Part shown: piece after piece, positions 149-36,338 of the stretch
Layout: each line of letters opens with the position of its first letter
Position numbering within the stretch: the first letter of the stretch is position 1
Source of the DNA: a virus
IMG/VR virus record: IMGVR_UViG_3300043438_001489
Coordinates: 1 to 43,653 of that record
DNA length: 43,653 nt
Direction: 5' to 3' (one strand)
Made by a program: the position numbers and the translations under genes
Notes under the pieces: generated by a model
What the model was told of the DNA's origin: nothing
The model's input: the letters and a program-made list of their open reading frames with translations, nothing else
Database searches by the model: none

Positions 149-1266
149 ACACCTTGCTTGGCAAGTTCGCGTTGCAGCCATGCTAGTGTGGCTCGAAACG
201 AAGAAGCAACTACAACCTTGGAAGGATTAGGGGAAACGTGTCCAGGGTCCATATAGCCTCGTTCTTCGAGCCATTCTGCAAACCACTCGAACTTTGAACT
301 GGAGAATGAATCTCCAATGATGCCAGGCTCGTCCCAGCCAGAACTAATCGCATACTGGCGGGCACGAATTGCGTAAGTAGCCGGAGAAATAGGCGAACTA
401 CCACCCTGACTATTTAAATACTCACGCAAATAGTTGAAGTAGTGTGTACGTTGAGACTTATCCATGTCTAACACAACGTTAATGTATTGCTTAGGCGGAC
501 GACCAGCCTGAATCTCAGCCTTGGTGCGCCGCATAAGGTACAAACTGTCTCTGTTAATCCATTCGACGGGGTTGCGCAGGCTGACAGGTACCACAAGGTC
601 TTTAGTGCGGCCACCTGGTAGGCGAATGGTGCGAGATTCCATGTTGAAGTTGGTAAACATCCAATGTTGATGGGACTTGTACACTTCAGGGAACAGGAAC
701 TTGAGTGTGCCGTAACGGTTCTCTAGTTTGGAACGGTCAGGGGTACCTGACACTGCAAGGCGTAAAGCCTTGGGGTCTGTCTTTAGATTTGATAGACCAC
801 GCCAGAATTGTGTGTACTGGTATCGTTGATCGGTTGCAGTAGGAAGAACCCTGTGAGACTCGTCAATGACAATAGCAGTATAAGTAGGGGTAAATAGGTT
901 CGGAACCCTTGGTTTGCCCCCTGGAGCGACTGAAAGAGCGTCATGGTTAGCAACAACAATAGCAGGAGCCACAACATTAGTAATGCGGTCATTCTTTTTC
1001 TCAGCACTTCCTGACGTTAAGTCATACACGTTGACATGGGTGGGCACAAACTTCTCGATGTGACCCTGCAGCCAAGTAGTCTTAGCAGGAAACTTGGGCG
1101 CAAGTATAAGAGTAACACCGTCATCGAAAGCATTGTTGGCTTCTAGTGCAGCCAAAGACATTAGAGTCTTGCCGGAGCCAGGCTGGTCAGCCAGTAACAC
1201 TCGGCGTTTCTCTGTGATGAAGTTCACAGCAATCTTCTGTGAATCCCACAGCATTTCATAAATCAA
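23..1266 (-). CDS. SNF2/superfamily 2 DNA helicase, N-terminal and central part (continues at the right end)
   Basis: ATP-dependent DNA translocase/helicase of the SNF2-like superfamily 2, probably acting in phage DNA replication or recombination. Reading from a TTG at 1266 there is a Walker A motif DQPGSGKT (residues 27-34), a Walker B box DESH (135-138) and motif III SGTP (173-176). The C-terminal RecA lobe lies at 43275-43653. Joined through the terminal repeat, the protein is 498 residues. The TTG start overlaps the stop of the methyltransferase-like gene by two bases and has a GAGGAG ribosome binding site nine bases upstream. An ATG at 1254 is the alternative start. Bases 1-22 are not genuine coding sequence. 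The family is clear; the exact role is inferred from its neighbours, a nuclease, an SSB-like protein and a primase. Confidence 0.9.
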
Positions 1267-1793
1267 GTGACTCGACTCCTCACAAGTTGTTTCATAATAA
1301 TTTGCTTAGGCAAGAGTTTGTAGCAGTAGTAACTGCTACTAAAGGTAACCCTATTGCTAACCCTGCCATCCTGTTGGATAAACTCTATACGTTTGTCAAA
1401 CATTAGCATCTGCAGGTCTTTCTCGGCAAACAACTGCTTTGGCGCAGCATCGTTTAGCCAGGTATTAGACATGATCAAGGCAAATGGTTTATCAAACGAT
1501 AATGCCCGTTCAAAGATTTTACGCTTATTAGTGAACGGTGGGTTGGATACTATAATGTCCCAGTTTTCTGGCTCATATGAGTAGAAGTCTTTTCCATCTG
1601 CTATGTGTGAATGCACAACTTCATTGGTTAATGAGATTTGCTTAACGAATTCACTGTCTGTGGTGTCAAAGGGGCACCAGACAATAGAATCTTTAGGGAT
1701 ATACTCAAGTATCGGAGTTACTCCGTATGCCGGCGTGTAGCATTCATCATTTGAACCACCAGAATAAAGCAAATTAGAACTGTCGTAAATCAT
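1263..1793 (-). CDS. putative small N6-adenine methyltransferase-like protein
   Basis: 176 residues. The motif NPPF (residues 84-87), preceded by WDIIVS, matches motif IV of N6-adenine DNA or RNA methyltransferases. WCPFD (39-43) sits where the S-adenosylmethionine loop (motif I) is expected, but it lacks the usual glycine pattern. The protein is short for a complete methyltransferase and has no visible target-recognition domain. It could modify phage DNA against restriction, modify a host RNA, or be inactive. The ATG at 1793 overlaps the upstream stop (TAATG) and has GGAG seven bases before it, so it is translationally coupled within the left operon. The call rests on NPPF and the Rossmann-like pattern only. 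Confidence 0.6.
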   Translation of the reverse strand: MIYDSSNLLYSGGSNDECYTPAYGVTPILEYIPKDSIVWCPFDTTDSEFVKQISLTNEVVHSHIADGKDFYSYEPENWDIIVSNPPFTNKRKIFERALSFDKPFALIMSNTWLNDAAPKQLFAEKDLQMLMFDKRIEFIQQDGRVSNRVTFSSSYYCYKLLPKQIIMKQLVRSRVT

Positions 1794-2110
1794 TAAGCGT
1801 CTCCTCGAACAAAAGCATCAATGTCTTCAAACACTGCATAAGTTTTAAACCACTCAGCAAGGTCCTCTAAAGTACCAAGCCTACTCTTAAACGCTTCACT
1901 ACCATTGTATGTCAAAGTTATGACATATCTGGCTGTGTCAATCTTAAGCGGCATGATTTGTAGAATCACCATGTAAGGGTCAGCGTTAGGGTTTTGTGAA
2001 GTTGCTTTGCCAATAAACATGTGAGGCATGCCAGAGAGGGGTCGAAACCCCAACTCTGACACAACTCGCATGGCCTCGGAAGAGAGTGGCGGAATGTTAT
2101 TCTTTTGCAC
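1793..2110 (-). CDS. hypothetical protein, 105 residues
   Basis: Not recognised. A soluble alpha/beta-looking protein without Cys clusters, membrane segments or known motifs. A longer reading frame exists upstream, but it lies inside the WhiB gene. The GTG at 2110 has AAGGAGAGA seven bases upstream and is the better start. It overlaps the WhiB stop by about 14 bases, and the gene ends in a TAATG overlap with the methyltransferase-like gene, so the three genes are coupled. Confidence 0.7.
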   Translation of the reverse strand: MQKNNIPPLSSEAMRVVSELGFRPLSGMPHMFIGKATSQNPNADPYMVILQIMPLKIDTARYVITLTYNGSEAFKSRLGTLEDLAEWFKTYAVFEDIDAFVRGDA

Positions 2111-2495
2111 GATCTCTCTCCTTTTTCCGAGCCTTTTGGAATCGATTATACGATTTGGCACGAAGAATCTTGCGTTCACCAGCAGACAAACCACCCCACA
2201 CCCCATCAGGGATGTTGAAACGCATCGCATGTTCAGCACACTGCATCATGACAGGACAAGTTTTGCACAACTGTTTAGCATGTTGCACATCACCCACATT
2301 CTCCATCTCAGCAAAGAAAGCATCAGGGTAAGACTCGCAAGGAGCATTACCTAACTCTTCCTGGATACGTTCAAGTAAGGCTATGTGAGATTGTTGCTCA
2401 GCATAAGAACCAAGCAACCCCTCAAAGTCATAGACCTTACTTACATCGACACCCTCGAGGGTGTTCACTGTCGTTTTTGCTTTGTCCAGACCCAT
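2097..2495 (-). CDS. whiB: WhiB-family iron-sulfur transcription regulator
   Basis: 132 residues from the ATG at 2495. The four conserved cysteines C53, C77, C80 and C86 (C-x2-C-x5-C in the last three) that bind a [4Fe-4S] cluster are present. They are followed by the GVWGG turn (98-102) and a basic C-terminal tail, the standard WhiB layout. WhiB proteins act with the sigma factor of actinobacterial RNA polymerase and are confined to actinobacteria and their phages, so this gene is the strongest host clue in the window. A GGAG lies six bases before the second possible ATG (2495). The first ATG (2507) has no ribosome binding site. The upstream gene overlaps by 59 bases. It probably alters host or phage transcription early in infection. 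Confidence 0.93.
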   Translation of the reverse strand: MGLDKAKTTVNTLEGVDVSKVYDFEGLLGSYAEQQSHIALLERIQEELGNAPCESYPDAFFAEMENVGDVQHAKQLCKTCPVMMQCAEHAMRFNIPDGVWGGLSAGERKILRAKSYNRFQKARKKERDRAKE

Positions 2496-2775
2496 CGGTT
2501 TCTCCATCTACTAAGTAAGCCTTAGCCGCACCCTCAAGTAGGATGAAGTCCAAGTCGTATTCTTCACTAATTGCCCGCATAGACTTCTCTACACCGCGAA
2601 ACAGGCGAAGTAGCAAAGCCGGGTCAGTAACATCCTTACGGATACTGACATGAGCATGCATCTCATCCTCAGGAACATAATACGACAACTCAATACTAAT
2701 CGCCTTGGAATCATGCTTTTGGTCAAGTTTAGTTGACAGGTTGTACTTATTATCTTTTTTCTTTAGTCTAGGCAT
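2437..2775 (-). CDS. hypothetical protein, 112 residues
   Basis: Not recognised. It has a basic N-terminus (MPRLKKKDNKYN), then an alternating strand and helix pattern, and a Ser/Asp-rich tail ending CRCK. The ATG at 2775 is chosen because the longer frame would lie inside the next gene upstream. The chosen start overlaps that gene's stop by eight bases and has GAGAG upstream. The tail overlaps WhiB in another frame. Confidence 0.65.
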   Translation of the reverse strand: MPRLKKKDNKYNLSTKLDQKHDSKAISIELSYYVPEDEMHAHVSIRKDVTDPALLLRLFRGVEKSMRAISEEYDLDFILLEGAAKAYLVDGETDGSGQSKNDSEHPRGCRCK

Positions 2776-3064
2776 TAGACTCTCTCTGATCAGGCGCTTC
2801 ATGAAGCGCATCTTGTGCGATGCCGGTAGTGCACATCGCATAAACGTCGAACATACCATCGGAACGGCTACGAACGACAATCTTAATAGGAGCATTCAAA
2901 CGTTTAACCTGAATGCGTAAACCACTGTTACTGTTCTTGGATGGGGTAGGCAGCATAATCCACCTGCCGGGGTTAGCCATCAAGGCTTCAATAACAGCAT
3001 TGTACTTAGATGTATACTTCCTGGGCGGGACATCCGCCCAGACAATCTCAATATCAGATTTCAT
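2768..3064 (-). CDS. hypothetical protein, 98 residues
   Basis: Not recognised. The middle (ALMANPGRWIMLPTPSKN) and the strand-rich part after it resemble a small protein that could bind nucleic acid, but no family can be named. The ATG follows directly on the upstream stop, with GAGAGG six bases before it. It is a member of the tightly packed left operon. Confidence 0.65.
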   Translation of the reverse strand: MKSDIEIVWADVPPRKYTSKYNAVIEALMANPGRWIMLPTPSKNSNSGLRIQVKRLNAPIKIVVRSRSDGMFDVYAMCTTGIAQDALHEAPDQRESNA

Positions 3065-3259
3065 TTAGTTCCTCTCTGTGAACGGTTTTATTGTGCGAGC
3101 AGATAAAAACAACTCAACATCTGAGCGTTTGTATCTAATGGTGGCAGCATTACTACCCCCAAACTTGATGTAACGTGGCCCCATGTTGCGACTACGCCAC
3201 TTTTGTAACGTGTTAAGGGACACGCCACAAATGTCGGCAACCTGTGCCGAAGTTAACAT
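3065..3259 (-). CDS. small helix-turn-helix DNA-binding protein (MerR/excisionase-like)
   Basis: 64 residues. MLTSAQVADICGVSLNTLQK is a typical winged-helix beginning of the AlpA/excisionase/MerR group, followed by RSRNMGPRYIKF and an RYKRSDVELFL ending, the usual pattern for this group. Such proteins bind DNA as excisionases or small regulators. No integrase is seen in the window, so a regulatory role is more likely. The ATG at 3259 is used. A TTG at 3274 has a better placed GGAG and would add five residues. The longer frame to 3361 lies inside the upstream gene. Confidence 0.8.
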   Translation of the reverse strand: MLTSAQVADICGVSLNTLQKWRSRNMGPRYIKFGGSNAATIRYKRSDVELFLSARTIKPFTERN

Positions 3260-3266
3260 TTCTTCA

Positions 3267-3494
3267 CTAGACAATAACACTCCAATGCTGTCCGTCATCC
3301 ATAGATATGGCAGACGCGGTCTGAATACCATCCACCTCAGTGATGCGGCTAATAACCACATTGTCTAAGGTTGCGGCGTTCTCAATGAAGTTACCCTTGT
3401 AAGCACGCATGAACTCTTCGTCAGCAACGAAGTAGTTATCCGTATCGGTAACCTTGTAGAACTTGTGAACACTATAACTAATTACGGTCGTCAT
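3267..3494 (-). CDS. hypothetical protein, 75 residues
   Basis: Not recognised. A small mostly beta-looking soluble protein (MTTVISYSVHKFYKV at the start). The ATG at 3494 overlaps the end of the upstream 45-residue gene by 17 bases, and GAGAG lies eight bases before it. No Cys cluster or membrane segment. Confidence 0.6.
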   Translation of the reverse strand: MTTVISYSVHKFYKVTDTDNYFVADEEFMRAYKGNFIENAATLDNVVISRITEVDGIQTASAISMDDGQHWSVIV

Positions 3495-3615
3495 CTAATT
3501 GACTCTCTTTCCATCTCTCATAGTCGTCATCACAACGACAGGATAAAGATCGGCACGTGTCGCACCCATCTGCTTGTTCTTCTTCTGTGAAGTCATCCCA
3601 ATCAGCCTCCCGCAT
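3478..3615 (-). CDS. tiny acidic Cys-containing protein, 45 residues
   Basis: Starts MREADWDDFTEEEQADGCDT and has four cysteines in a C-x2-C, then C-x-C arrangement (GCDTCRSLSCRC), which could bind a zinc ion. It is strongly acidic. The ATG at 3615 has GGGAG seven bases upstream and overlaps the preceding gene by 14 bases. The longer frame from 3672 lacks such a site. Function unknown; small acidic phage proteins often inhibit host enzymes, but nothing here shows this. Confidence 0.6.
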   Translation of the reverse strand: MREADWDDFTEEEQADGCDTCRSLSCRCDDDYERWKESQLDDDRN

Positions 3616-3820
3616 ACTGAATCTCCCAACCTGTAAGGTCAGAGCCATTAGCAAGGTCAGCAGCAAAGGCAAATCGTTCAGACTCAGGCATCTGAGCCAG
3701 GAACTCTAACTGACGCACAGTTACCTTAGAGTCGTGTAGGACGATAAGACTGCCTACCCCATACTCTCCGGATTCGGATACCCAAACTCCATGAACAATT
3801 GTATTTAAACTTGTAGCCAT
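3602..3820 (-). CDS. hypothetical protein, 72 residues
   Basis: Not recognised. Strand-rich first half, helical second half (SERFAFAADLANGSDLTGWE). Its start is coupled to the previous gene by a TAATG overlap at 3818-3822. Confidence 0.6.
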   Translation of the reverse strand: MATSLNTIVHGVWVSESGEYGVGSLIVLHDSKVTVRQLEFLAQMPESERFAFAADLANGSDLTGWEIQYAGG

Positions 3821-3966
3821 TACTCAACACGCCCCTCAACAATAGACAAAGCCATCCACAAGCCATCAAGATAGCCGCGACCATAACTCTGCAAGTCGTT
3901 TGACGCAACCTTTTCAGCCTTTTTTATCTCGTCCATAAGGGTGGACACATTTGGTATTTCACTCAT
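3820..3966 (-). CDS. tiny hypothetical protein, 48 residues
   Basis: Reading frame from the ATG at 3966 to the TAA at 3820. It begins MSEIPNVSTLMDEIKKAEKV and continues with a helical GRGYLDGLWMALSIVEGRVE. It fills the gap between two neighbours exactly, with TAATG overlaps at both ends, which is the main support that it is real. Function unknown. Confidence 0.65.
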   Translation of the reverse strand: MSEIPNVSTLMDEIKKAEKVASNDLQSYGRGYLDGLWMALSIVEGRVE

Positions 3967-4208
3967 TAACTAATCACCTCGATTATCTTATTGTTTGTTT
4001 CAATTTGGGCTTTTAAATCTTCCAACGCCCAAAGCCTACCAGTATGGTATGACAATTGGTCCATCTCATCAGGTAAGTTCTGTGACTTCTCCTGAATTCT
4101 AATCAAAGCCAACTTATCTTCCTGTGCTTTAATAAGTTGACTAATCTGGCTCAATACCAGATGACGATCGAAACTACCTTGCCAATGATTAGACATTGTC
4201 ATTGCCAT
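3966..4208 (-). CDS. hypothetical coiled-coil protein, 80 residues
   Basis: Mostly helical, with a heptad-like pattern (QISQLIKAQEDKLALIRIQE), so a small coiled coil is likely. AAGGAG lies seven bases before the ATG at 4208. Overlaps its upstream neighbour by 20 bases and its downstream neighbour through TAATG. No family recognised. Confidence 0.65.
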   Translation of the reverse strand: MAMTMSNHWQGSFDRHLVLSQISQLIKAQEDKLALIRIQEKSQNLPDEMDQLSYHTGRLWALEDLKAQIETNNKIIEVIS

Positions 4209-4544: not shown

Positions 4545-4599
4545 AAAAAAAAGTGGTTGAGCGTAAGGAGAAAGGGGGGAAATCCCTACGCTCAACCAC
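4545..4599 (-). terminator. intrinsic terminator after the amidotransferase gene
   Basis: A 13-bp perfect stem, 4553-4565 (GTGGTTGAGCGTA) with 4587-4599 (TACGCTCAACCAC), and a 21-base loop. On the minus strand the stem is followed at once by eight T residues (plus-strand A run 4545-4552). It lies between the amidotransferase stop at 4695 and the start of the left operon at 4496, so it separates two transcription units. The minus-strand loop carries six C residues. Confidence 0.85.
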
Positions 4600-4694: not shown

Positions 4695-5834
4695 CTAGAA
4701 CAACTCGCAACTATCCTCAATACGCTCAGTAACCTTAGCGTCTGAATATAGTGTGCCATCAGCCAAAACAATACCGTAATCGACTAGGTCATAGTCATCA
4801 AGGTAAGAGTTAAAGGCGTTCAGGTCGTCCTCATAATCTTCATACTTGTACCCGTTATAGTACGCGTATTGTAGGTGTTTAGGGTTAGTAGACATCGTAC
4901 CCTTAACCCTGTATGCGATGTAGTAGTGAGGTTCACCTTTAACCTCAGCACCAAGGAAGTCGGTCTTTTTATCACCGCTTGACTTACCTACCGCATAGTT
5001 CCAATAGTCATCATCAAACTCATCGTCATAACCACCAAAGCCAGATGTCGGACTGTCATACCAAGAGTTACCGGTCGCCTTAGCACCAGAAGTCTGGTGA
5101 CGATAGTAACCATAGTTGTAACCGCCACCGATATGCTTAGACTTACCAAGCGTACTCATCTCGGTAATCACACCATCAACAACCTTAAGGTATGTGTACT
5201 GTTCGACATGAGTAATCAGGTCAGGCATAAGGTCTAACTTGATAAGTACCTGCCATAGCAAGGCTTCTGTCGATGCGAAGATAAACGAACCGTCCTCGAC
5301 TTGACAGATAACCATAGGCGAATGCTCAAGACGAGCCAGGTGCAACACACCTTGGTCGTCATGGCGTAACCATGCGATAGCCGCATCACCATCTAACTCT
5401 TGCAACGACTCAAGGTTGTTAGCATGCTCCTCAATGAGAGCAGGGATAACAGCAGTATCCACATCAAACTTGATGCGACTACTGAGAATCGATCTGACAT
5501 AGTTATGGTTATAGATAACACCATTATGGACGAGAGCAATATTACTGCTAGGTGACATAACAGGATGATTGTTACGATTGTCCTCTGTCGAACCATGCGT
5601 AGCCAACCTAGTATGAACAATACCAACATTAACTGTTTTGGGTACGCCTTTGAGTGCTAATCCACTCCCGGGGGTCGCACCCTTATGAACACCAGACATT
5701 CCGTCAGGTGTATGCCAAGCAATACCGCTTGCCATACCACCACGCGACTCCAACGCTGTAAGTAACGCATTAGACAATTCACGCGGTCGAATCTTTGAAC
5801 CTTTAGACAAACTAAAACCACCAATACCACACAT
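4695..5834 (-). CDS. class II glutamine amidotransferase (Ntn-hydrolase glutaminase)
   Basis: 379 residues. Cys2, which becomes the N-terminal nucleophile after Met removal, is followed by the family residues in order: RGGMASG (31-37), HTRLATHGS with R76 and H80, NHPV (89-92), the oxyanion HNG (103-105) and DTAVIP with D126. This is a full glutaminase domain that releases ammonia from glutamine. The C-terminal 150 residues are Gly/Tyr/Asp-rich (GGGYNYGYY and following) and match no synthetase or sugar isomerase domain, so the acceptor is not defined here. Its upstream neighbour is an amidoligase, which makes a two-protein amide-forming system the best reading. AAGGAG lies ten bases before the ATG, and the start is fixed by the need for Cys2. 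A stem-loop separates the two genes. Confidence 0.92.
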   Translation of the reverse strand: MCGIGGFSLSKGSKIRPRELSNALLTALESRGGMASGIAWHTPDGMSGVHKGATPGSGLALKGVPKTVNVGIVHTRLATHGSTEDNRNNHPVMSPSSNIALVHNGVIYNHNYVRSILSSRIKFDVDTAVIPALIEEHANNLESLQELDGDAAIAWLRHDDQGVLHLARLEHSPMVICQVEDGSFIFASTEALLWQVLIKLDLMPDLITHVEQYTYLKVVDGVITEMSTLGKSKHIGGGYNYGYYRHQTSGAKATGNSWYDSPTSGFGGYDDEFDDDYWNYAVGKSSGDKKTDFLGAEVKGEPHYYIAYRVKGTMSTNPKHLQYAYYNGYKYEDYEDDLNAFNSYLDDYDLVDYGIVLADGTLYSDAKVTERIEDSCELF

Positions 5835-5869
5835 AGGGCATCAACTCCTTATTGTTATTTAATTAGAAT

Positions 5870-5918
5870 GTTAAGGGTGTGAGTGAGTTGGGGGGACATT
5901 GGCACTCACACCCTTAAC
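5870..5918 (-). promoter_or_regulatory. long stem-loop between amidoligase and amidotransferase genes
   Basis: A 16-bp perfect stem, GTTAAGGGTGTGAGTG (5870-5885) with 5903-5918, and a 17-base loop carrying six C residues on the minus strand. Unlike the terminator at 4545 there is no U tract after it, so it may be a transcript processing or stability element or a partial terminator that sets the ratio of the two proteins. Confidence 0.65.
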
Positions 5919-5931
5919 AAGTATTTACCGA

Positions 5932-7620
5932 TTAAGCATCGACAAACTCATACTCACCGTTCATGGCGTTAGCCAGAGCGTGAGTATCTTTGTCGTACTC
6001 ATCTGACGGAATCTCAGAACCGTATTGTCTGAGCACCGATACAACATCTGCCATAGAACGAACCGAAGTCCAAACGCTGACAGGTATATCAAGTCGTGAC
6101 ACATTAACCATCTCACGACAGAACCACGCCCACCTAATGAGGTGTTCGTAATTATACTTAGGCCCCATAACCCTGAACTCTATCGTGCCATGCTTGCCCA
6201 AGGATTGGACATTCAGGTCATGATAGCGGTCATCAGGTTGTGACCATGAGGCTGCCACAATATCTGAGGCAGACAACTTCTCACCAGTACGATAGTTAAG
6301 CAAGTCGCCCTTGACCGCATTACGCACCGCAGACAACCAATACTGGAGGTTTTGCGAGGTAACATCGCGACAATAGTTGCGACTACTACGATGAGCAATA
6401 TGTTCGATGAACGGTGACACAATACTGTAAGCGCGAACTAGACGACCAACATCAGTGATAGTCAAGTCCTCAGCACCAACATGAACGTGGATCCCTGGAG
6501 TGCTGTTCACCGGAGCATGCTCCAATGGCCCACACAGGTCACGCAACCCGTTGCTGTGGAAGTGCGACAAGATAGGAGACACATACTCCATACATTCGCC
6601 ACCATCTTCATCACAATTATCGTGATAACCGTCATAACAGTCAGAGCAATCGCAAGAACAACCGTCATTATCACCCATAGACTCTAATGAGCCGTCACTA
6701 GTTGCTTCCCACCCGCGGGGGCGGCTAACCAACTGTGCCTGAACAGTCTCGACCTCAATACCCCATGTTCTGGAAGTATTAGAGCCAGGCTCCAACAAAG
6801 GAATACTATCCCATGTTTGAGTGACTTCAGCAGGGAACACACGCTTAGAGATGTCAGACTTCAACGTCTGCCAATACCTCTCAAAGTTAGTGCGTGAAGT
6901 AGCAAGTCGCTCAACACGCTTAGTGTCACCTAGCCTAGCCTTATCAGCAAGCAATTGGTTACGAGCATCACGCACAGAAGCAAGGCTTAGCGGGATATGC
7001 TCATGTAACCGAGTAACCGTCTTGCCTAGAGTGTACGCAACATCAAGACCAACCTCACTAGGTAACCGCACAGTAGTATCCAACGCATACAGGCTATCAG
7101 TGAACGAACTAGCACCATACTCAGTAGCACGAGCCAAAGCATACGCTTCAGCCAACTCACCACTAAAGGACGGCTTGAACGGATCGATAATACGATAACG
7201 TCCCTCGTACGTGCCATCAGGTACAAGTACCTGACCAGCACGCTCTAACACAATCGTGTTACTAACCGTAGCCACATCTCTAGGTATGTAAGTCACATAC
7301 AAAGGTATAGACAAACCAGCGTGCTTAACAAGCACCTTGCCGTCCACTTTGTCTGCTAGACCCTGAGCAAGCAACTTGCCCAGATTGTCAATCACATACT
7401 GTGTCAACTTGGCAGAGGCCATCAAATACTTGGCCGCTTGAATAGAAGACTCCGCGCTATCAGACAACTCAATCGAATTAGTGTGAGGTACAACAATAGA
7501 TGCTTTACCGTACGACTGAACTCGACCGTTTTGACGTTCATCACGAAGATGACCTCTAAACCATGAATAGAGATAAGGCACATTAGTAGACACGACAACA
7601 TCTGCTTCATTAAAAAGCAT
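5932..7620 (-). CDS. amidoligase of the COOH-NH2 ligase (glutamine-synthetase-like) family
   Basis: 562 residues. The C-terminal half has the marks of the amidoligase family: WGIEVET (286-292, the metal and ATP-binding ExE strand), DGSL (309-312), EYVSPI (345-350), GIHVHVG (376-382) and GTIEFRVM (478-485). These enzymes form amide bonds between a carboxylate and an amine using ATP. Family members occur in phages and beside glutamine amidotransferases, as here, which suggests ammonia or an amine is joined to a carboxylate of a peptide, protein or cell-wall component. Residues 321-343 form an insertion with six cysteines and many Asp residues, probably a zinc site. The first 280 residues match nothing I know. 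GGGAG lies ten bases before the ATG. The substrate is unknown. Confidence 0.85.
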   Translation of the reverse strand: MLFNEADVVVSTNVPYLYSWFRGHLRDERQNGRVQSYGKASIVVPHTNSIELSDSAESSIQAAKYLMASAKLTQYVIDNLGKLLAQGLADKVDGKVLVKHAGLSIPLYVTYIPRDVATVSNTIVLERAGQVLVPDGTYEGRYRIIDPFKPSFSGELAEAYALARATEYGASSFTDSLYALDTTVRLPSEVGLDVAYTLGKTVTRLHEHIPLSLASVRDARNQLLADKARLGDTKRVERLATSRTNFERYWQTLKSDISKRVFPAEVTQTWDSIPLLEPGSNTSRTWGIEVETVQAQLVSRPRGWEATSDGSLESMGDNDGCSCDCSDCYDGYHDNCDEDGGECMEYVSPILSHFHSNGLRDLCGPLEHAPVNSTPGIHVHVGAEDLTITDVGRLVRAYSIVSPFIEHIAHRSSRNYCRDVTSQNLQYWLSAVRNAVKGDLLNYRTGEKLSASDIVAASWSQPDDRYHDLNVQSLGKHGTIEFRVMGPKYNYEHLIRWAWFCREMVNVSRLDIPVSVWTSVRSMADVVSVLRQYGSEIPSDEYDKDTHALANAMNGEYEFVDA

Positions 7621-7782: not shown

Positions 7783-8098
7783 ACGACATAGCAGTACGAA
7801 GACTGCTAAGCACGCCATAACGATACTGCCTGTGGATAACTCATACCTTCTAAATAGAGTTATCCACAAGTAATAATGCTATGGAGCCCAATAAAATACT
7901 GGAACTGTGGTAATTGTGACAGCAGTGACAGCGTTTTACCAAAGTTTGGCAATGACAAGGATAAGGCCCATAAATAGGGTACTTCCTACAAAACTTTTGT
8001 GAAAATAGCAAAACGCTGTCACTAGTACTGCTCCGTACCGATAAGTACCGATACAGACAGGTATGTCGTCACGACATAGCAACCCTGCCTGTGGATAA
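7779..8098. other. putative origin of replication with three perfect DnaA boxes
   Basis: Perfect TTATCCACA boxes lie at 7831-7839 (complement), 7860-7868 and 8090-8098 (complement). The first two sit in a 12-bp inverted repeat (7831-7842 with 7857-7868). CGTCACGACATAGCA occurs at 7779-7793 and 8067-8081, each time upstream of CTGCCTGTGGATAA (7826-7839 and 8085-8098). GTGACAGCGTTTT (7925-7937) faces its complement at 8010-8022, and GTACCGATA is tandemly repeated (8035-8053). No gene lies here. Several DnaA boxes with direct and inverted repeats in a non-coding segment are characteristic of a replication origin. Direct proof is lacking. Confidence 0.75.
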
Positions 8099-15552: not shown

Positions 15553-18500
15553 TTACTGACCGGCTTGGTCACTTCTGCGTGCCAAGATTTCTTGCACGGC
15601 TTTCTTGCGGATGTCTATTGTGTCCAGTTCGGTCTTCTTTAAACCTGTTATCCAGTTCTCGAACACCATCTGGTTCTTGCGGGTGGCAGCGTCTACGTTC
15701 ATGCCTTTTTGTGAGGCTTTAGAGCCAACAATCGGTAGATTTGGGAACATTAGTGCCACCATGATGTGTACTGGTCCAAAACCTAGTTTGCTTGCTGCGT
15801 CTTCAACAAACAATGGAACAGTTTGTCGAGTGAAACGGTTGCCTGACATTAGCGGGCTTCCGCCTTGTGTTTTCTTTTCAAAGATCCAGTCGTTAGCCAT
15901 TGAGATTAGTAGTGGCTGTGATGAGGTTACGAAGTTGTCAAACGTGTTGAAGGTGATTTCTCCAAGTTGTTTTTCTAGTGGGTCTTGGTTGTTGAAGCGG
16001 ATTGCTTGAACCCATGACCCTTGACCGAGCAGGTCGGTTACAGGGTTTGAGAATGTAAAGGACGACATTCTGCCTTCATCGTTTAGGAAGGTAGGGTTCA
16101 TGTTGCCCTTCATGTAACTTGGGCGTAGTTGGTTGTTTGGGTCAAAGTCACCAAAACCACTGTATTCTGCACCTTGTGCTTCTGACATGAACTGTTGTAG
16201 TCGAAGAACAGTTATGGCGCTTCCTGGCTTATCTAGCACCCCTGTAAGTACCGCTCCAAGCATTTTTGCACGCCAGGTGAAGAATAGTACAAAGTTTCGG
16301 GTGAACTTTTGGTTGAAAGCGCTTAGGCCCTGCATCTGTGGGTGAACTTTGTTAACCTTTTTTGACACAAAGGCTGCGGCTTCTTCTAGGCTGTTCCAGT
16401 TGCCTTTTTGGATTAGGTCGATGAAGGCGGTTAGGCGTAGCCAGTCGTCTCGGTTTCCAGCCCAACGGGCTAGGAAAGCATCGCCTTTGTCGTAGCCCCT
16501 GCGAAGAATGCCACGTTTCTTAGTGCTTCCTAGTACGTCTAGTTCACGTAACTGGTCTGCTCCACCAGCCTGGCTGTGAGGCACAACACCAACAGTTTTA
16601 ACATAAAGGTCCCACCAGTCTTTAAGGCTGACTGCCACCTGTTTGTTTTTGATTCTGGTTGTGAACGAGGTGCTTGAGGTTGGGTCGTTTACTGGGTTGA
16701 TCTGTAATTCAGCCTTTGCAGTGCGGCGGTCTAGTACAGCAAATGCGGCTTCTGTTGCGTTTGTTTGTTTTGCTGCGAACATTCCGGCGATAGCGCCTGG
16801 TTCTAAACCTAGTTCTTGTTCTACGTCGATACCTACAGCCCGCATAACAGCCGATGCGCGACCGTACGCTAATGGGCTCCACACTCCCAACAGTAGACCG
16901 TTAGCGGTAACTCCACCAACAGTGTTTTGAATCCAGTTTTTAGGGCTGTACTGGGTCATCATCTTTTTTGCCAGGTCTTGAAGCGGTTGAACTTTAATCA
17001 TTGCTCGTTCAAGGCTTCCGTTAGCCTGCAAGTGTTTTACCTGAGTTAGGTACGAAGATACTTCTTTAAGTTGTTCAACGATTGCTCTAGGGAAGTAGTA
17101 ACCTGGCGGGATGGCTGATAGTAGTTCGTTCCCTGGGGTTGCTCGCTTGGGTAGCACTAGTTCGACTAGGTCGGCTGCTTTGGCTTCTTCACGGCTTATG
17201 CTGCCTTTAGCGAATCCGAATAGTCGAGTGAAGTTTGCTGCTGCGCTTGTTGTTTCGATAACTTTTTGAGTTGCTGAGTGAACAGCAACATACATGTCGT
17301 AAGGGTTTTCGATGTCCCATTCTCGCCAAATGTTTACGAATGCTTCTGGGTCTTTGGTTTGTACGAATGCAAAGGCATCGGCTTTTTTAGCCATTTGTGT
17401 GGTTGCTGCGCCTGCGGTTAGCGCAGCCTGTGCGGCTTTGTTGTCTGTAATTACTTTTCCAGTGGCGGTGTCGATGACTTCAATGTTTTGACGGAGCATT
17501 CCCTGCCCGATTTCTCGGAGGGTTCTGTTGATGAAGTCGCCTTCAAAGGCTACGTTTCGTGCAATAAAACTTTCTTCTCCGCCAGAGAACAGGCGGCTGT
17601 GAACTACCCACATGTCAGCCATTGCTTCTCTTAGCATGGTGTCATCTGGTGAGATAAACTCGTCTAGGAGCCTGGCATCGTCGACTAGTTGACCGTAGGC
17701 TTCTTTGCTTATTCCTTTGGTTAATTGATCGCTTTTGGCTATTGCGCCATTTTCTAGTTGTTTTATTGCAGTAAACGCTTTTACAACAATTTCGTCTGGG
17801 ATTTCTTGTAGCGCTTTGAAGGCTTCTGTTGATAGTTTGCGACCAGTTTGGGCTTCAAATGCTGCATACTTTTCTTTAATCTTAAGCAAGTGTCTTGCAA
17901 CAATTTCAGCAAATTCGCTTGTTACTGTTTTGGTGTTCATGGTGATTGGGTTGACCAGTTCACGTAGGTCTTCCATGTTCCAGGTTGCGAAGGCTCGTCC
18001 GATACGGTTTAGGGTTTTCCAGCCTTTAAGTTTGGCGAGGATGTTTCCACGTTCTGCTAGTTTGTTTACAGACATTTCGTACATCATGTCGTCGCTAAGG
18101 TTGTTGTCTACGGCTTTCATGGCGTCTAAGACAATTAGGTTGTCGAATACGACTGGATCTAGGCTTTCCAATGCGTCTACGTTAGCCTGGGCGCTTGCTC
18201 GCTGTATTTCCTGTATCGAATTAGCCTCTGAGGCCGCCTTAGCGACCTTTTCAGACTGGTGCATGAAGACAGCCGCTATCGGCTCTAAACGGGCTCCCAT
18301 GACGGCGTTAAAGTCCATTTTGGCAATGATTTCGACCATTACGTCATCTGTTTGGTTGGCAAGGGCTGCATCTAAGTCTTTTGAAGCCTTTTTAACGGCT
18401 TTAATGTTCATACCTTCGCTGCTGAGGTCGTTGTCTAGCAACTTCATTAGACCGGTCATGATCGGTTCTGCGATTCGGTTTGCTTCATACTTGAAGCGCT

Positions 18501-21500
18501 GTACAGCGTATCCTCCGTTGAGCCTGTGTGCTTGGTGCAGGCTAGTTGCTACATCTTCCTGGATTAGGCGTGTAACGAGTAGGCGGACACGTGCAATAGT
18601 CTCTTCTGGGTTGGAGTTAAGAAGACTCTTGATTTTTGTGTTTGTTTTCTTGTCAATGCCTCGGGACATGTTTTTCATGTCTTCAATCATCATGCGTTCC
18701 ATAATGTCTTGAAGGTTGCGCAGTTCGTTTGCATCAAACCATTGACCGACTGGTAGGGAATCCATTGCCATAATAAGGATGCGGGTAGGTGAGAAGAGCG
18801 GGGTGATTGGGAGGCTGTTTAGCGGTCCTTGGCAAAACTGTTGCTTAAAGATGTCATCGCCTAGTGCGTCAATGAAGTCACCTTCGGTTATGTAGATTGC
18901 GTGAGCACCAAGTGCTTTTCGCTCAGTTTGGCTTAAAGTGTCATAATTTAGACCCATTGCACGTGCGGTTAGGGCGTGCTGATTTCTCTTTAGGGAGATA
19001 GTTGAACTTGGGTAGATTCCGCGAGCGTTAAAGTAGAGGTCTCGTGCGTTAATAACTAGGGTGGCGTATCTTGACATGAAGTTTTCGTAGGCTTCAGTTC
19101 CAAGCACAAGGTTGTTTGCTCTTGCGATTGCCGAAAGTCTTGAAAACATTTCTTTGTCTGCGGTGTAAAGGTTTTCAATGTCAAAGTTGTTTTTGATAAA
19201 GGTTTCTTTGACACCTTTTTCTTTTAGGGCTGCTCTTGCACCCTTTTCAGTCTGGTCGAAGTTTGCACGCAACACACGACTTGTAATGTCTTCGTAAGCA
19301 ATGTCTGCAACCGGTTTTGATAAGTCCCCAGCCTGACGGGCTAGAACTGTCTCCATGTCAGTGAAACGACCGAACGCTTTTCCTGCACTGTAAGAGGCAA
19401 GGTCCATGACCCAGCCTTCGCCACGAGCGTTAAGTTCGTTTGCAAAAGATGCCAACATGTGTAGGGTTTGGTCAACGGTTACGTCTGGGGCTGGCAGGCC
19501 GTCTGCGATGTCTCCAACATCTCTACCGCTAGCAATTAGAGTGCTTTCAAAGACGGTGTTGAACTTAACCTGGTCTATTTCAACCTGGCTAATGTGTTTC
19601 TTACCGTTTCTGATTAAGGCTAAAACGTCAGAGCGTTCGATGATCTCTTTTTTGTCTAAGACTTTTGCTGCATCTTCGATACCTAAAGCCTGTAGTACTT
19701 CTAGTACTTGGGCTTCGGTAGGGATAACTTTTCCAGTGGCAGGGTTTACTTGACCTGGGCGTAGTGGAGAGTTCTTGCGGTTAGGGTAACTGTCTAGGAG
19801 TTCTTTGTAGTTTCTCCATGGGCTTGCGCCTCCACCAAGTTGGGTAAGGTTTTTCATGTGCTGCATTGCTGCAGTCCATTCGTCTTGATCCATTGATGTT
19901 ACGACTACTTTTTTGCGCAACCAGGAGATAAACAGGTTAGGGTTGCCGTTGTCAACAACATCTGAAATGGACATTTTGCCGTCCCATTCAGGTTTGGACA
20001 GGTTTGGCGAGTCTTTTGCTATTACTTCTTCTATTTTCTTTACTAGTTTTTCAAAACTCTTTTTGGAGTTGGCGAGGCTGGTTGCTCCGTCGATCCCACG
20101 TAAGACTACTCGGGCGTTTGGTGATGCTACTAGTTTTTGGTCTACGAGGTCTTCTGCTAAACGCAGGTCGTATGCGTGCCAGAAACGGGCTACAATGTTT
20201 GCTTCTACACGGGCAACGGAGGTTGCGTTTATTCGGATTTGGGCTGAGATAAATGGTAGGAGTTCTTGTGGGCGAAGCGCTAGCGGGAGGGTGCGGGCCA
20301 CTTCTGACTCAGCGATTGCTCGCACAGCGTTACGAGATGCAGTTTCCCACTGTTTAGATAGAAGTCGCTCGTACAAACCCTTTTCTGCACCGCTTAGCCC
20401 CTTGTAACCTTTTTCTTTCACGGCTTTAAGCACTGCGGTAAGTATTACGTGAGTTGCTGGTTCTCCTGCGGCGGCAGGCACAGCCCGCCCGTCTTTTAGC
20501 ACTGCGCTTACAAGCCCTGGCTGTACACCTAGAGATCCTACAATTTTTTGAACTTCAGGGGTTGCATCAATGTAGTTGATGAAGTCTTTGCTGCTAGGGT
20601 TTAGAACAGCATCTGCAGCCTCTATTCCTACAGGAAAATCTCCGTTTACAAGGTCTTTGCCACGAGCCGTTTTTCCCTGGTCTGCCAAGTCCAACACAGA
20701 GGTGTTTCGTTTTTCTCCACGTTTAAAACTTAAAATAATTTTTGCTGAAGCGTATCCGTCAAGTTTCATCTTCGCTTCAACAGCGCCTTCTACGTAACGC
20801 TCAAGCATTTCTTCAACACGACTGGTGATTCTGGCTTCTTCGGCTTTTAGGAACTTTCCTGAACGGGGAAGGGTTCCAGTAGTTTTTGCTGTCGCAATGC
20901 TTCTTGTGCGGGCTTCTAGCGTGTGGAGTAGAGGTGGGGTTACAAACTCGGTCCAAGCATAGCCAGGGAGTTCTTTGCCTTCTTCGATCTCTTTTGGTGT
21001 AAGAGGCTTTCTTTCCATCAAAGGCTTTAGGGCAGTTGATAGGGCTTCCATGTTTGAAAGTTCGCTTACTGGCGGGATGCCCGCTTTTTCAGCAAGGTCG
21101 TCTATGGCTTCAGCGAAACGGCCACCGTCAACGGAGTCTCGGTGCGCACTGGCGCGGTAAGCGTACGCAATGAATTCGCCCATGAGACGCTCTGATGCGC
21201 CTTCTTTTTCGCTGGCAAATAGTGTTTCAAAGTTTCTACGGTTTAGTTCACCCATTGCCCCTGTGCGGGTTCCGCTAATGACAGCATGGGTAGGTTTTGC
21301 TTGTCCGAAGATGTCGATTCCGTTTTCAAAGAGGGTTTCGATAGCCTTCATCTTCTTCATACGGAGGTCTTCTAGGTATTCTGTGACTCGTTTGAGTTCA
21401 GCGTCTGTAACCATTTCGGTGCGAAGTTTGTTGCGGCGCAGCGCGACGTCTAGAACTTGGAGTACTTCTCCATCTTTAAGGTCGGCTACCATGTCTACGG

Positions 21501-23844
21501 TTACAATGACTGGCTTGCCTTTGATGTTGATTTTGATTTCTTTTTTGGCTGCAACTTTTTGGATGGCTTTTTTGGCTGCCAAGATTTTGTTCATTTTGGC
21601 GGCAGCGATTGTTTCGCTGATGCTGTCTAGGGATACTCGTCCGTCGATGGCGTCGAATGATTCTTTAGGTAAACCTAGTCGACCGAGGATGTTTCTGATT
21701 TCTTTGTCTCGCACTACACCTGCTGCTTCTAGGTGTAGAGACCAGATGCGCCCACGAAGTAGAGGGGAAACGTCGCGACCAAGTTTTGCTGCTATTTCTT
21801 TTTCGGCAGCGTTTGCGGCAAGGTTGTAAGACCTGGTGATTTCAGGGTTGTTTGTTAATGGGTTTACTCCGTCGTTTGCCACACGTTCGATGGCGTAAAA
21901 GTCTTCGCCTTGACCTGATAGGCGGTTGGAAACCCATTTAATTCTTGAAGCGAGGAGAGATAGAGAAACGCCTGAAGCCTGCAACATTTCACCGGTAAGG
22001 TTTGCTACAGAAATTCTTTGAGTGCCGGTGGTGTCTGCGCCTAGCGCTTGACGGATCCTTAACCAGTCGTTGGAGATGTTATCTCCAGACCAAACCATGG
22101 CTTTACCTTTTGGCTGGAGTTCAGCCTGCTTGCCTTGAAGGAAAGCAATCTCTTTGTTTTTGGCAGGACCGATTCTTTCCCCAGCACCTTTACGTTTGCT
22201 TTCAGCACCCTTAGTGCTTCTCTCAACAGTTTCAGCACCTTTGCGGGCTATGGTCTGTCTAAAACCTACAGGTTGGGTAAATGCTTCGTCTAGGAGTTTA
22301 ATGTATTCAGCGTTCGCTGGGTCTGTTCTCCAAGCCTCCCATGCGGTAGCCGCACTGCCATCTGCTCGTCGAGAAGCAGAAGTCATGTCATCAGCAAGTT
22401 TTTGTACAGGGGTTGCTGCACGAAGTTCAGCCGCAGATCGATTTGTACGGAAAATAGGGGACGGGCCTTCAAGAGACCGCACAACTTCATCAGCCTGGGT
22501 GGTAACAAGTCTTTCAGGTGTTTCAATACCTGCCTCAGCAGCCGACTGCTCTAAACGGATAAGTGCACGGGTGCCCAGATTCGCTTGAAGTTTTTTAATA
22601 CCTTTAGGGCTAACAACGCTTCCCACAACTTGACCAAGGTCATTGGCTTCTTTAAGTAGGATTTCGTTAATTTTTTCTGCTGAAACTTTTTGCTCTGCTT
22701 CAAGAGTTGCTTTTTTGAGTGCAAGCCTTTGAGCGATTATGTCTTGACCAACCTGCATTAGGTCGTCAGGGGTTAATTCAGCCTTACCGAGGGCTTCAAG
22801 GTTTTGTTCAAACTCTTTTGCAAACGTTCTTGCCGCAGTTTTTGAAGCCCAACGGTCAAACGCAACCTGGTGGGCTTCCTGGAAGCCTCGACCCATCTCT
22901 TTAAGGATGTAAAGGTAAGGGTTAGTGTTAGCAATAGTGTATTTAGGGTCAGTAAGTTCAATTTCGTTACCTAAGCGGGTGCGAAGTTTCTTTCCTTCAA
23001 CCTTTTGTAGCGGAGCATAGAACGGTCGAGGAGCGTTTAGAGTTTTCTCAGCAAATCCAGCCTTGTCTGCAGCGGTAACGTAACGGGTTGCTACCGAAGC
23101 ACCACGGGCTGCACCCTTAATTGCACCACCAATACCTAATGTTGCATACGTTGCAGGGTCTAGGAGGATGTCAAGGGTAGTTCCGACCGTGTTTTTTGCT
23201 GTCCACCCGCCGAGAGCGGTGTCCCAGTACACGTCTTCACTGATTTTTGGTACACCTAGGTCGGTGAGGTCTTCGTTGTTGAGGACTTGGGTCCAGGAGT
23301 CGTATACTTTTCCGCCTGTAAAGTTTTCAATGTCTTTTTTTGCGTCGGGTAGGACGGAGTATGTTAAACCTTTGACGGTTCCGACTATTGGAGCAGATAC
23401 CATTCCAATAAAGTTGGAAGCAATTTTGCCTAGTTCGTCTGCTTCGATTCCGTCTTCGACGGTTCTCTTGATTTCTGCAGCATTATGGATTGAGGTGGCG
23501 GCTGTGTTGAGTACGGCACGCCCTAGTCCGGTGATTACACGGAATCCCCAACCGATTGCACCCCACTCGGAGTAGTCAGGTTTGGTTTCTTCTGCAGGTT
23601 TCGAGGGGATTAGTGAGTCTGCGAATCCGCCGATTGGATCTGTTGGAGTTGTTGGAAATGCTGGGGTTGTGGTTCTGCCACCTGGTCCGATTAGGCGTGC
23701 TGCTTTGTCGGAGTAGTTTGCGAAGGGTTTTCCGAGCAGTCTTTCGGCTTTTGCGGAGGCGGAGGCAACGTTTACTTTTGACATGTCTTTCACCGATGAT
23801 GAAATCTTGCCAGCCTTTTGGATGTAAGAGTTGCTGTCTGCCAT
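15553..23844 (-). CDS. giant virion/ejection protein, 2,763 residues
   Basis: The largest gene, about 19% of the genome. The N-terminal 120 residues are Ser/Pro/Thr-rich. Amphipathic helices with short hydrophobic patches follow (GWGFRVITGLGRAV, ATYATLGIGGAI), then a very long, mostly helical, charged body. The last 500 residues include YSPKNWIQNTVGGVTANGLL and FTRNFVLFFTWRAKMLGAVL. This layout fits very large internal virion or ejection proteins of podoviruses, which enter the cell with the DNA. No clear lysozyme, protease or RNA polymerase motif was found by eye; an N4-type virion RNA polymerase would be the main alternative and needs a profile search. AGGAAGG precedes the ATG, and an extended -10 lies 20 bases upstream. 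Confidence 0.8.
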   Translation of the reverse strand: MADSNSYIQKAGKISSSVKDMSKVNVASASAKAERLLGKPFANYSDKAARLIGPGGRTTTPAFPTTPTDPIGGFADSLIPSKPAEETKPDYSEWGAIGWGFRVITGLGRAVLNTAATSIHNAAEIKRTVEDGIEADELGKIASNFIGMVSAPIVGTVKGLTYSVLPDAKKDIENFTGGKVYDSWTQVLNNEDLTDLGVPKISEDVYWDTALGGWTAKNTVGTTLDILLDPATYATLGIGGAIKGAARGASVATRYVTAADKAGFAEKTLNAPRPFYAPLQKVEGKKLRTRLGNEIELTDPKYTIANTNPYLYILKEMGRGFQEAHQVAFDRWASKTAARTFAKEFEQNLEALGKAELTPDDLMQVGQDIIAQRLALKKATLEAEQKVSAEKINEILLKEANDLGQVVGSVVSPKGIKKLQANLGTRALIRLEQSAAEAGIETPERLVTTQADEVVRSLEGPSPIFRTNRSAAELRAATPVQKLADDMTSASRRADGSAATAWEAWRTDPANAEYIKLLDEAFTQPVGFRQTIARKGAETVERSTKGAESKRKGAGERIGPAKNKEIAFLQGKQAELQPKGKAMVWSGDNISNDWLRIRQALGADTTGTQRISVANLTGEMLQASGVSLSLLASRIKWVSNRLSGQGEDFYAIERVANDGVNPLTNNPEITRSYNLAANAAEKEIAAKLGRDVSPLLRGRIWSLHLEAAGVVRDKEIRNILGRLGLPKESFDAIDGRVSLDSISETIAAAKMNKILAAKKAIQKVAAKKEIKINIKGKPVIVTVDMVADLKDGEVLQVLDVALRRNKLRTEMVTDAELKRVTEYLEDLRMKKMKAIETLFENGIDIFGQAKPTHAVISGTRTGAMGELNRRNFETLFASEKEGASERLMGEFIAYAYRASAHRDSVDGGRFAEAIDDLAEKAGIPPVSELSNMEALSTALKPLMERKPLTPKEIEEGKELPGYAWTEFVTPPLLHTLEARTRSIATAKTTGTLPRSGKFLKAEEARITSRVEEMLERYVEGAVEAKMKLDGYASAKIILSFKRGEKRNTSVLDLADQGKTARGKDLVNGDFPVGIEAADAVLNPSSKDFINYIDATPEVQKIVGSLGVQPGLVSAVLKDGRAVPAAAGEPATHVILTAVLKAVKEKGYKGLSGAEKGLYERLLSKQWETASRNAVRAIAESEVARTLPLALRPQELLPFISAQIRINATSVARVEANIVARFWHAYDLRLAEDLVDQKLVASPNARVVLRGIDGATSLANSKKSFEKLVKKIEEVIAKDSPNLSKPEWDGKMSISDVVDNGNPNLFISWLRKKVVVTSMDQDEWTAAMQHMKNLTQLGGGASPWRNYKELLDSYPNRKNSPLRPGQVNPATGKVIPTEAQVLEVLQALGIEDAAKVLDKKEIIERSDVLALIRNGKKHISQVEIDQVKFNTVFESTLIASGRDVGDIADGLPAPDVTVDQTLHMLASFANELNARGEGWVMDLASYSAGKAFGRFTDMETVLARQAGDLSKPVADIAYEDITSRVLRANFDQTEKGARAALKEKGVKETFIKNNFDIENLYTADKEMFSRLSAIARANNLVLGTEAYENFMSRYATLVINARDLYFNARGIYPSSTISLKRNQHALTARAMGLNYDTLSQTERKALGAHAIYITEGDFIDALGDDIFKQQFCQGPLNSLPITPLFSPTRILIMAMDSLPVGQWFDANELRNLQDIMERMMIEDMKNMSRGIDKKTNTKIKSLLNSNPEETIARVRLLVTRLIQEDVATSLHQAHRLNGGYAVQRFKYEANRIAEPIMTGLMKLLDNDLSSEGMNIKAVKKASKDLDAALANQTDDVMVEIIAKMDFNAVMGARLEPIAAVFMHQSEKVAKAASEANSIQEIQRASAQANVDALESLDPVVFDNLIVLDAMKAVDNNLSDDMMYEMSVNKLAERGNILAKLKGWKTLNRIGRAFATWNMEDLRELVNPITMNTKTVTSEFAEIVARHLLKIKEKYAAFEAQTGRKLSTEAFKALQEIPDEIVVKAFTAIKQLENGAIAKSDQLTKGISKEAYGQLVDDARLLDEFISPDDTMLREAMADMWVVHSRLFSGGEESFIARNVAFEGDFINRTLREIGQGMLRQNIEVIDTATGKVITDNKAAQAALTAGAATTQMAKKADAFAFVQTKDPEAFVNIWREWDIENPYDMYVAVHSATQKVIETTSAAANFTRLFGFAKGSISREEAKAADLVELVLPKRATPGNELLSAIPPGYYFPRAIVEQLKEVSSYLTQVKHLQANGSLERAMIKVQPLQDLAKKMMTQYSPKNWIQNTVGGVTANGLLLGVWSPLAYGRASAVMRAVGIDVEQELGLEPGAIAGMFAAKQTNATEAAFAVLDRRTAKAELQINPVNDPTSSTSFTTRIKNKQVAVSLKDWWDLYVKTVGVVPHSQAGGADQLRELDVLGSTKKRGILRRGYDKGDAFLARWAGNRDDWLRLTAFIDLIQKGNWNSLEEAAAFVSKKVNKVHPQMQGLSAFNQKFTRNFVLFFTWRAKMLGAVLTGVLDKPGSAITVLRLQQFMSEAQGAEYSGFGDFDPNNQLRPSYMKGNMNPTFLNDEGRMSSFTFSNPVTDLLGQGSWVQAIRFNNQDPLEKQLGEITFNTFDNFVTSSQPLLISMANDWIFEKKTQGGSPLMSGNRFTRQTVPLFVEDAASKLGFGPVHIMVALMFPNLPIVGSKASQKGMNVDAATRKNQMVFENWITGLKKTELDTIDIRKKAVQEILARRSDQAGQ

Positions 23845-36086: not shown

Positions 36087-36338
36087 ATGGCAGAATCCCC
36101 AAACATTGACGTAAGTCAGTTGCATTTGTCGGCTGATACCGACACCGGGGCTACTGCTATCCATCATACTCTTGGTCCGAAGCCTTTTCAAGCCTCACCT
36201 GGAAGTCACCGCCATGATGGTAAGGACTCTGTCCGTTTAGATTTTAATGATTTAATGAATAGTTGGATGAACATTGATGGCGGCACTCCGTCAACAATTT
36301 ATACTCCTATTCCTCACCTTGATGGAGGCGCAGTTTAA
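36087..36338 (+). CDS. small virion protein upstream of the tail fibre, 83 residues
   Basis: TLGPKPFQASPGSHRHDGKD is a segment seen in short proteins encoded just before phage tail fibres, where it may form a turn or metal site. The rest is Asp/Thr-rich. Translation is predicted to be leaderless. It ends in a TAATG overlap with the fibre gene, so the two are made together. Confidence 0.65.
   Translation: MAESPNIDVSQLHLSADTDTGATAIHHTLGPKPFQASPGSHRHDGKDSVRLDFNDLMNSWMNIDGGTPSTIYTPIPHLDGGAV

Follow-up and report, generated by a model that had tools for sequence, protein, structure and literature searches.

Amidoligase cassettes have been described in LUZ24-like and related podoviruses, namely LUZ24, tf, UFV-P2 and PSA-HP1 (PMC3890496, PMC5498523). 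Amid the replication genes of these phages, an Amidoligase_2 protein is encoded adjoining or near a class II glutaminase, together with an additional COOH-NH2 ligase, an ATP-grasp enzyme and a cyclotransferase. For related phage cassettes, wall modification and superinfection exclusion have been suggested (PMC5498523, PMC10580990, PMC11318856), in the accessible parts of these papers without an experiment behind them. The Arthrobacter phages Ottawa (gp65/66), Kovu (gp97/98) and Salgado (gp98/99) likewise carry adjacent genes for an amidoligase and a glutamine amidotransferase. A bacterial parallel is the peptidoglycan-amidating complex MurT/GatD of Staphylococcus, in which the ligase MurT is supplied by a stand-alone glutaminase and bears an inserted Cys4 zinc ribbon whose role is unclear (PMC6113224).

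Here, we analyzed such a gene pair on IMGVR_UViG_3300043438_001489, a contig of an uncultured actinobacterial virus, the whole 43,653 bases of which are referred to as the window. The pair itself is of a known kind; what is new is a distinct actinophage clade that includes the window and is marked by a Cys-rich ligase insert and a conserved glutaminase tail.

The paired genes and their domain organization

The original prediction had placed a class II glutaminase lacking a synthetase domain beside an amidoligase, and had proposed a profile search of both proteins. Both reading frames were recovered at the predicted positions on the minus strand, and each matched its family profile. The pair comprises the following features:

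4695–5834, minus strand, stand-alone class II glutaminase (Ntn, GATase_6), 379 aa; PF13522, 3.9e-21
5145–5834, minus strand, glutaminase catalytic domain, residues 1–230; model confidence mostly >90
5079–5120, minus strand, glutaminase tail motif YNYGYYRHQTSGAK, residues 239–252; 10 positions invariant in the four closest members
4719–4937, minus strand, glutaminase C-terminal alpha/beta domain, residues 300–372; AlphaFold2 block confidence mostly 70–91
5932–7620, minus strand, Amidoligase_2 (COOH-NH2 ligase, glutamine-synthetase/GCS-type fold), 562 aa; PF12224, 8.5e-16
6781–7620, minus strand, ligase N-terminal extension, residues 1–280; an alpha/beta part and a 47-residue helix (213–259)
6745–6765, minus strand, WGIEVET motif, residues 286–292 (E289, E291); invariant in 56 sequences
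6592–6684, minus strand, Cys-rich insert, residues 313–343; from the alignment and Cys counts of 72 amidoligases
6475–6495, minus strand, GIHVHVG motif, residues 376–382; H378 and H380 invariant
6166–6186, minus strand, TIEFRVM motif (EFRVM 481–485; T479, E481, R483); invariant

The glutaminase starts with MCGIGGFS, so that the cysteine follows the initiator Met. It scores 75.9 bits against PF13522 (cut-off 27), matches PHROG 14519 'glutamine amidotransferase' at 1.7e-35 and has the GlmS glutaminase as its nearest solved fold (Foldseek E 1.7e-15). Across 53 relatives, R76, N88, H90, H103, N104, G105 and D126 show no variation, and C2 is retained in at least 90%. The predicted catalytic residues Cys2, R76, HNG and D126 were thus borne out, whereas H80 was not among the invariant or 90% columns. 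Similarly, the C-terminal half had been described as Gly/Tyr/Asp-rich, which applies to a disordered linker at about residues 253–290, while the remainder consists of a conserved helix (239–252) and a folded domain (300–372). In the AlphaFold2 model (mean pLDDT 84), the tail motif forms a short helix at 241–248, and the linker, modelled as disordered at 253–286, separates it from the C-terminal domain of beta-beta-alpha-beta-beta-alpha topology. The tail motif is a candidate docking element.

The ligase scores 59 bits against PF12224 (curated cut-off 22), with a profile match spanning residues 298–504 only, and matches PHROG 2443 at 1.7e-17. Its three predicted motifs, WGIEVET, GIHVHVG and EFRVM, are present, and E289, E291, D309, E345, G376, H378, H380, T479, E481 and R483 do not vary among 56 relatives; E289 and E291 are putative metal ligands. 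For residues 1–280, which are common to the long clade I ligases, the profile search returned no family match. Foldseek ranked YbdK (1tt4/1r8g) and then glutamine synthetases as the nearest solved folds. The YbdK match has a probability of 0.99 at E 2e-3, a TM of about 0.2–0.3 and about 12% identity, and no match among solved structures fell below E 0.001. In the viral structure library, the neighbours of the model are phage amidoligases, including those of Arthrobacter phage Salgado and Pseudomonas phage tf.

The most distinctive feature of the ligase is the insert at 313–343, which the original prediction had overlooked together with the tail motif and the clade status. It lies between D309-G-S and E345, contains C321, C323, C325, C328, H333, C336 and C343, and presumably binds zinc. 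Although the ligase is modelled well overall (mean pLDDT 87), much of the insert falls in blocks of about 52–55, and the zinc-binding reading is therefore drawn from the Cys pattern and not from the model. YbdK (1r8g, 1tt4) and glutamine synthetase have neither this insert nor the N-terminal extension.

Glutaminase and amidoligase genes occur together

To obtain comparable loci, 80 were picked by the glutaminase sequence alone and others were reached via amidoligase queries and annotated Arthrobacter phages; the pairing count covers 72 loci after duplicate removal, the window included. Neither of the outcomes that would have contradicted the original prediction was observed: the ligase matches its profile with its active-site residues intact, and the pair does occur together elsewhere. 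An amidoligase adjoins the glutaminase in 67/72 of the non-redundant loci; the remaining five are truncated by contig ends, which lie 155 to 1,110 bases from the glutaminase start. Pairing is close to obligatory, which makes the idea of a two-subunit enzyme directly testable. In most loci the ligase lies upstream on the same strand, as in the window, where the ligase comes first and the glutaminase second; some loci instead have a divergent arrangement, with 360 to 1,210 bases between the genes. The between-locus distances of the two proteins correlate with an r of 0.74, a value reached in 0/2000 permutations, none of which exceeded 0.09. Since neighbouring genes have a common ancestry, this correlation tells us that the genes travel together, not that their products touch.

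Such pairs recur in phages of many hosts, as the original prediction had stated for some bacterial and phage loci and as described for the Arthrobacter phages and the podoviral cassettes (PMC3890496, PMC5498523). Judged by sequence, with few cases checked by profile, the recurring neighbours of the pair resemble phage genes, such as those for WhiB, a helicase and a terminase; no third pathway gene recurs among them, and none specific to the wall was identified there.

Other assignments were considered and rejected. The window gave no PADLOC match to a defence system. In the genome scan for a bacterial chromosomal origin, only one locus (L094) has amidoligases beside the glutaminase; the scan matches are mostly about 630 aa long and are presumably of asparagine-synthetase or GlmS type. 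The plasmid matches listed are glmS. L094 is a 15-kb contig of a Microthrixaceae MAG, of either viral or bacterial origin, with two tandem amidoligases followed by a tailed glutaminase at 1018–3969. Six further loci from Actinomycetota MAGs (L095–L100) encode stand-alone glutaminases of 263–274 aa with no amidoligase nearby.

A distinct actinophage clade with a ligase insert and a glutaminase tail

Thirty-two loci, one of them the window, form one clade in both trees (support 1.0 for the glutaminase and 0.998 for the amidoligase). In 31/32 clade ligases, the segment from D309-G-S to E345 holds the Cys-rich insert, whose cysteines number 6 to 11; three of these inserts (L027, L033, L040) are evident from the alignment and were missed by the automatic Cys-motif pattern. 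In L013, the exception, the insert is acidic and has a single cysteine, as it does in the near-twin L012, which is not part of the tree. Clade glutaminases end in a tail, about 105 to 167 residues long, that carries the motif YR.(M/A/Q)T(S/A)G(G/A); the window's version is YRHQTSGAK. Outside the clade, most glutaminases fall between 242 and 296 residues and the insert is absent from the ligases, some of which show a CxxC pair at another position. PF12224 also recognises the clade ligases much less strongly, at 1e-6 to 1e-18, compared with 1e-26 to 1e-43 for the others.

The Arthrobacter phage pairs share with the window their gene order, strand, protein families, actinobacterial hosts and a hairpin-capable spacer, and Ottawa and Kovu have a WhiB gene nearby as well. 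They differ in their shorter proteins and in a ligase without the Cys-rich insert, and in Kovu a gamma-glutamyl cyclotransferase is also located beside the pair. A similar tail motif occurs in Arthrobacter phages without the insert, so tail and insert are linked but not inseparable. The Cys cluster is absent from the ligases of the three Arthrobacter phages and of 13 other phage records inspected, and searches of phage records gave no match covering 80% of a clade ligase. Judged from these comparisons, the clade appears to have no cultured member among the isolated phages examined.

For the ATP-grasp enzyme of the LUZ24-type cassettes, the Pfam search found no counterpart among the larger ORFs of the window; a PF14395 search for the second COOH-NH2 ligase gave no match, in the controls likewise. 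Gamma-glutamyl cyclotransferase (PF06094) is encoded in 10/16 records outside the clade, while a search with positive controls found it neither in the window nor in any of the 33 records on its side. LUZ24-type glutaminases bear CxxC-type cysteine pairs at the C-terminus, whereas in the window's clade the cysteines are in the ligase. In LUZ24, tf, Bjorn, PJNS034, TacPo2 and Alcaligenes phage QDWS535, all from Gram-negative hosts, the glutaminase has 470 to 586 residues with CxxC-type pairs in its C-terminal part, and the ligase is without an insert. The presumed metal-binding module may therefore reside on either partner. Vibrio phage 172P1 has neither the CxxC-type glutaminase tail nor the ligase insert.

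Hairpins around the genes

Two hairpins flank the glutaminase gene:

5869–5919, minus strand, intergenic hairpin with a 17-bp perfect stem and a 17-nt loop; dG -30.6, z -5.5
4545–4599, minus strand, terminator-like hairpin and T8 run, located downstream of the glutaminase; inverted repeat I9, fold and T run

Among the perfect stems with short loops found in the window, the one between the ligase stop and the glutaminase start is the longest. As no U run follows it, it may set the ratio of ligase to glutaminase rather than end transcription. Similar folding is frequent: 13/16 loci with a same-strand spacer of 40–130 nt (the window and 12/15 others) fold at z <= about -3. Among control spacers of these phages, 11/38 have hairpins, so that the pair spacer represents an enrichment and not a unique mark. 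The stems differ in sequence among distant loci; those of the window and L002 are related, with one base pair changed on both sides. An RNA family search gave no match.

Proposed function of the pair and alternatives

On the basis of family membership, conserved catalytic residues and pairing, the two proteins probably constitute a two-subunit, glutamine-dependent amide ligase. The class II glutaminase would hydrolyse glutamine via its N-terminal cysteine and hand the ammonia to the amidoligase, which would activate a carboxylate with ATP at the EVE/HVH/EFR metal site and convert it into an amide. In this clade, the glutaminase tail and the Cys-rich insert, the latter presumed to bind zinc and situated next to the ligase active site, probably tether the two subunits or the substrate. 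Actinobacteria of this kind amidate their peptidoglycan. The target might accordingly be a free carboxylate of a host wall peptide or its precursor, altered during infection; the phage could gain from this if other phages bind less well or if lysis is timed. We regard the host wall peptide as the most plausible substrate, if only tentatively, and tend to favour as the overall explanation a split ATP- and glutamine-dependent amide ligase acting on a host wall carboxylate. The target, which the original prediction had offered as conjecture, stays conjecture here. If it is indeed the wall, phages would amidate peptidoglycan during infection. The prediction for these cassettes reportedly goes back to Iyer et al. 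2009, and our literature search, to which that founding paper was external, found no experimental test of the pair's product.

The comparison with MurT/GatD gives the wall reading only slight additional support. MurT/GatD is a two-subunit, glutamine-dependent amidating enzyme, as the window pair would be, and in both a separate glutaminase accompanies a ligase bearing an inserted Cys-rich module. However, MurT has a Mur-ligase fold and GatD is a different type of glutaminase with active-site Cys94 (PMC6113224), whereas the window pair combines a glutamine-synthetase-type ligase fold with an N-terminal-Cys, GlmS-like class II glutaminase; the parallel is thus one of analogy, not homology. An extended version, in which the clade is a separately evolved two-subunit wall-amidating enzyme of MurT/GatD-like plan, its zinc insert and glutaminase tail bind one another and gate ammonia, and phages of Gram-negative hosts carry the metal module on the other partner, is quite unlikely to hold in full. 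Independent of this, the clade offers the defined insert and the tail motif as a handle for mutation.

Members of the ligase family can also join amino acids to peptides or proteins, and amidation is therefore not the sole possible reaction. The pair could instead modify a host or phage protein; the ligase would then couple a protein carboxylate to ammonia or an amino acid, as has been proposed for peptide-tagging enzymes of other phages and of bacteria. Peptide-bond chemistry would fit the ATP-grasp enzyme, second COOH-NH2 ligase and cyclotransferase of related phages, the Cys-rich insert and the tail domain could bind a protein, and phage GNATs and R2K ATP-grasp ligases have been proposed to modify host proteins (PMC7824862). 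Yet, given how strictly the ligase is coupled to a glutaminase, its nitrogen donor is more likely ammonia than an amino acid, and no candidate target gene recurs next to the pair, which leaves a protein target unlikely.

More doubtful still is a role in making or altering a small molecule, for example a gamma-glutamyl amide or a thiol-related metabolite. YbdK, the nearest solved fold, is a glutamate-cysteine-ligase-like enzyme, and the cyclotransferase of relatives outside the clade is consistent with such a product; however, that gene is missing throughout the window's clade, and the surroundings of the pair show no other recurrent metabolic gene. Finally, it is highly improbable that the ligase amidates the C-terminal glutamate of actinobacterial Pup: Pup ligase and Dop also have a glutamine-synthetase-type fold, but the Dop chain appears far down the fold search without significance (E 1.6, probability 0.06), and many relatives are encoded by phages that infect Pup-less hosts.

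Host and genome layout of the virus

One gene of the window points to its host:

2097–2507, minus strand, WhiB-family regulator; PF02467, 2.2e-18

WhiB marks actinobacteria as well as the phages that infect them. The profile search that detected it here also found it in 34/49 related records and, among 14 control genomes, in Corynebacterium alone. Judged by this gene, we take the host to be actinobacterial. Portal, major capsid, terminase and head genes were recognised in the window. One helicase gene is split between both contig ends (1–148 and 43528–43653), which have at least 40 exact bases in common; this suggests a nearly complete genome that is probably circular. Bases 1–22 resemble a reverse-complement copy of the neighbouring sequence and are probably a small fold-back assembly artefact. 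Adjoining the helicase, a 176-aa ORF at 1263–1793 shows weak N6-adenine methyltransferase-like matches; L002 has no counterpart at the equivalent place.

Three exact DnaA boxes (TTATCCACA), all copies of the window, are clustered within 268 bases at 7831–8098, in an ORF-poor 1.1-kb stretch upstream of the amidoligase; by chance, 0.39 would be expected across the whole window. L002 has three boxes of similar spacing in the equivalent place, and we consider 7831–8098 a candidate replication origin. A 2,763-aa protein encoded at 15553–23844 gave no significant Pfam match. The plus-strand gene at 36338–38329 probably encodes a fibre, as its product has collagen repeats and a phage tail repeat in addition to an Mtd-type N-terminal domain.
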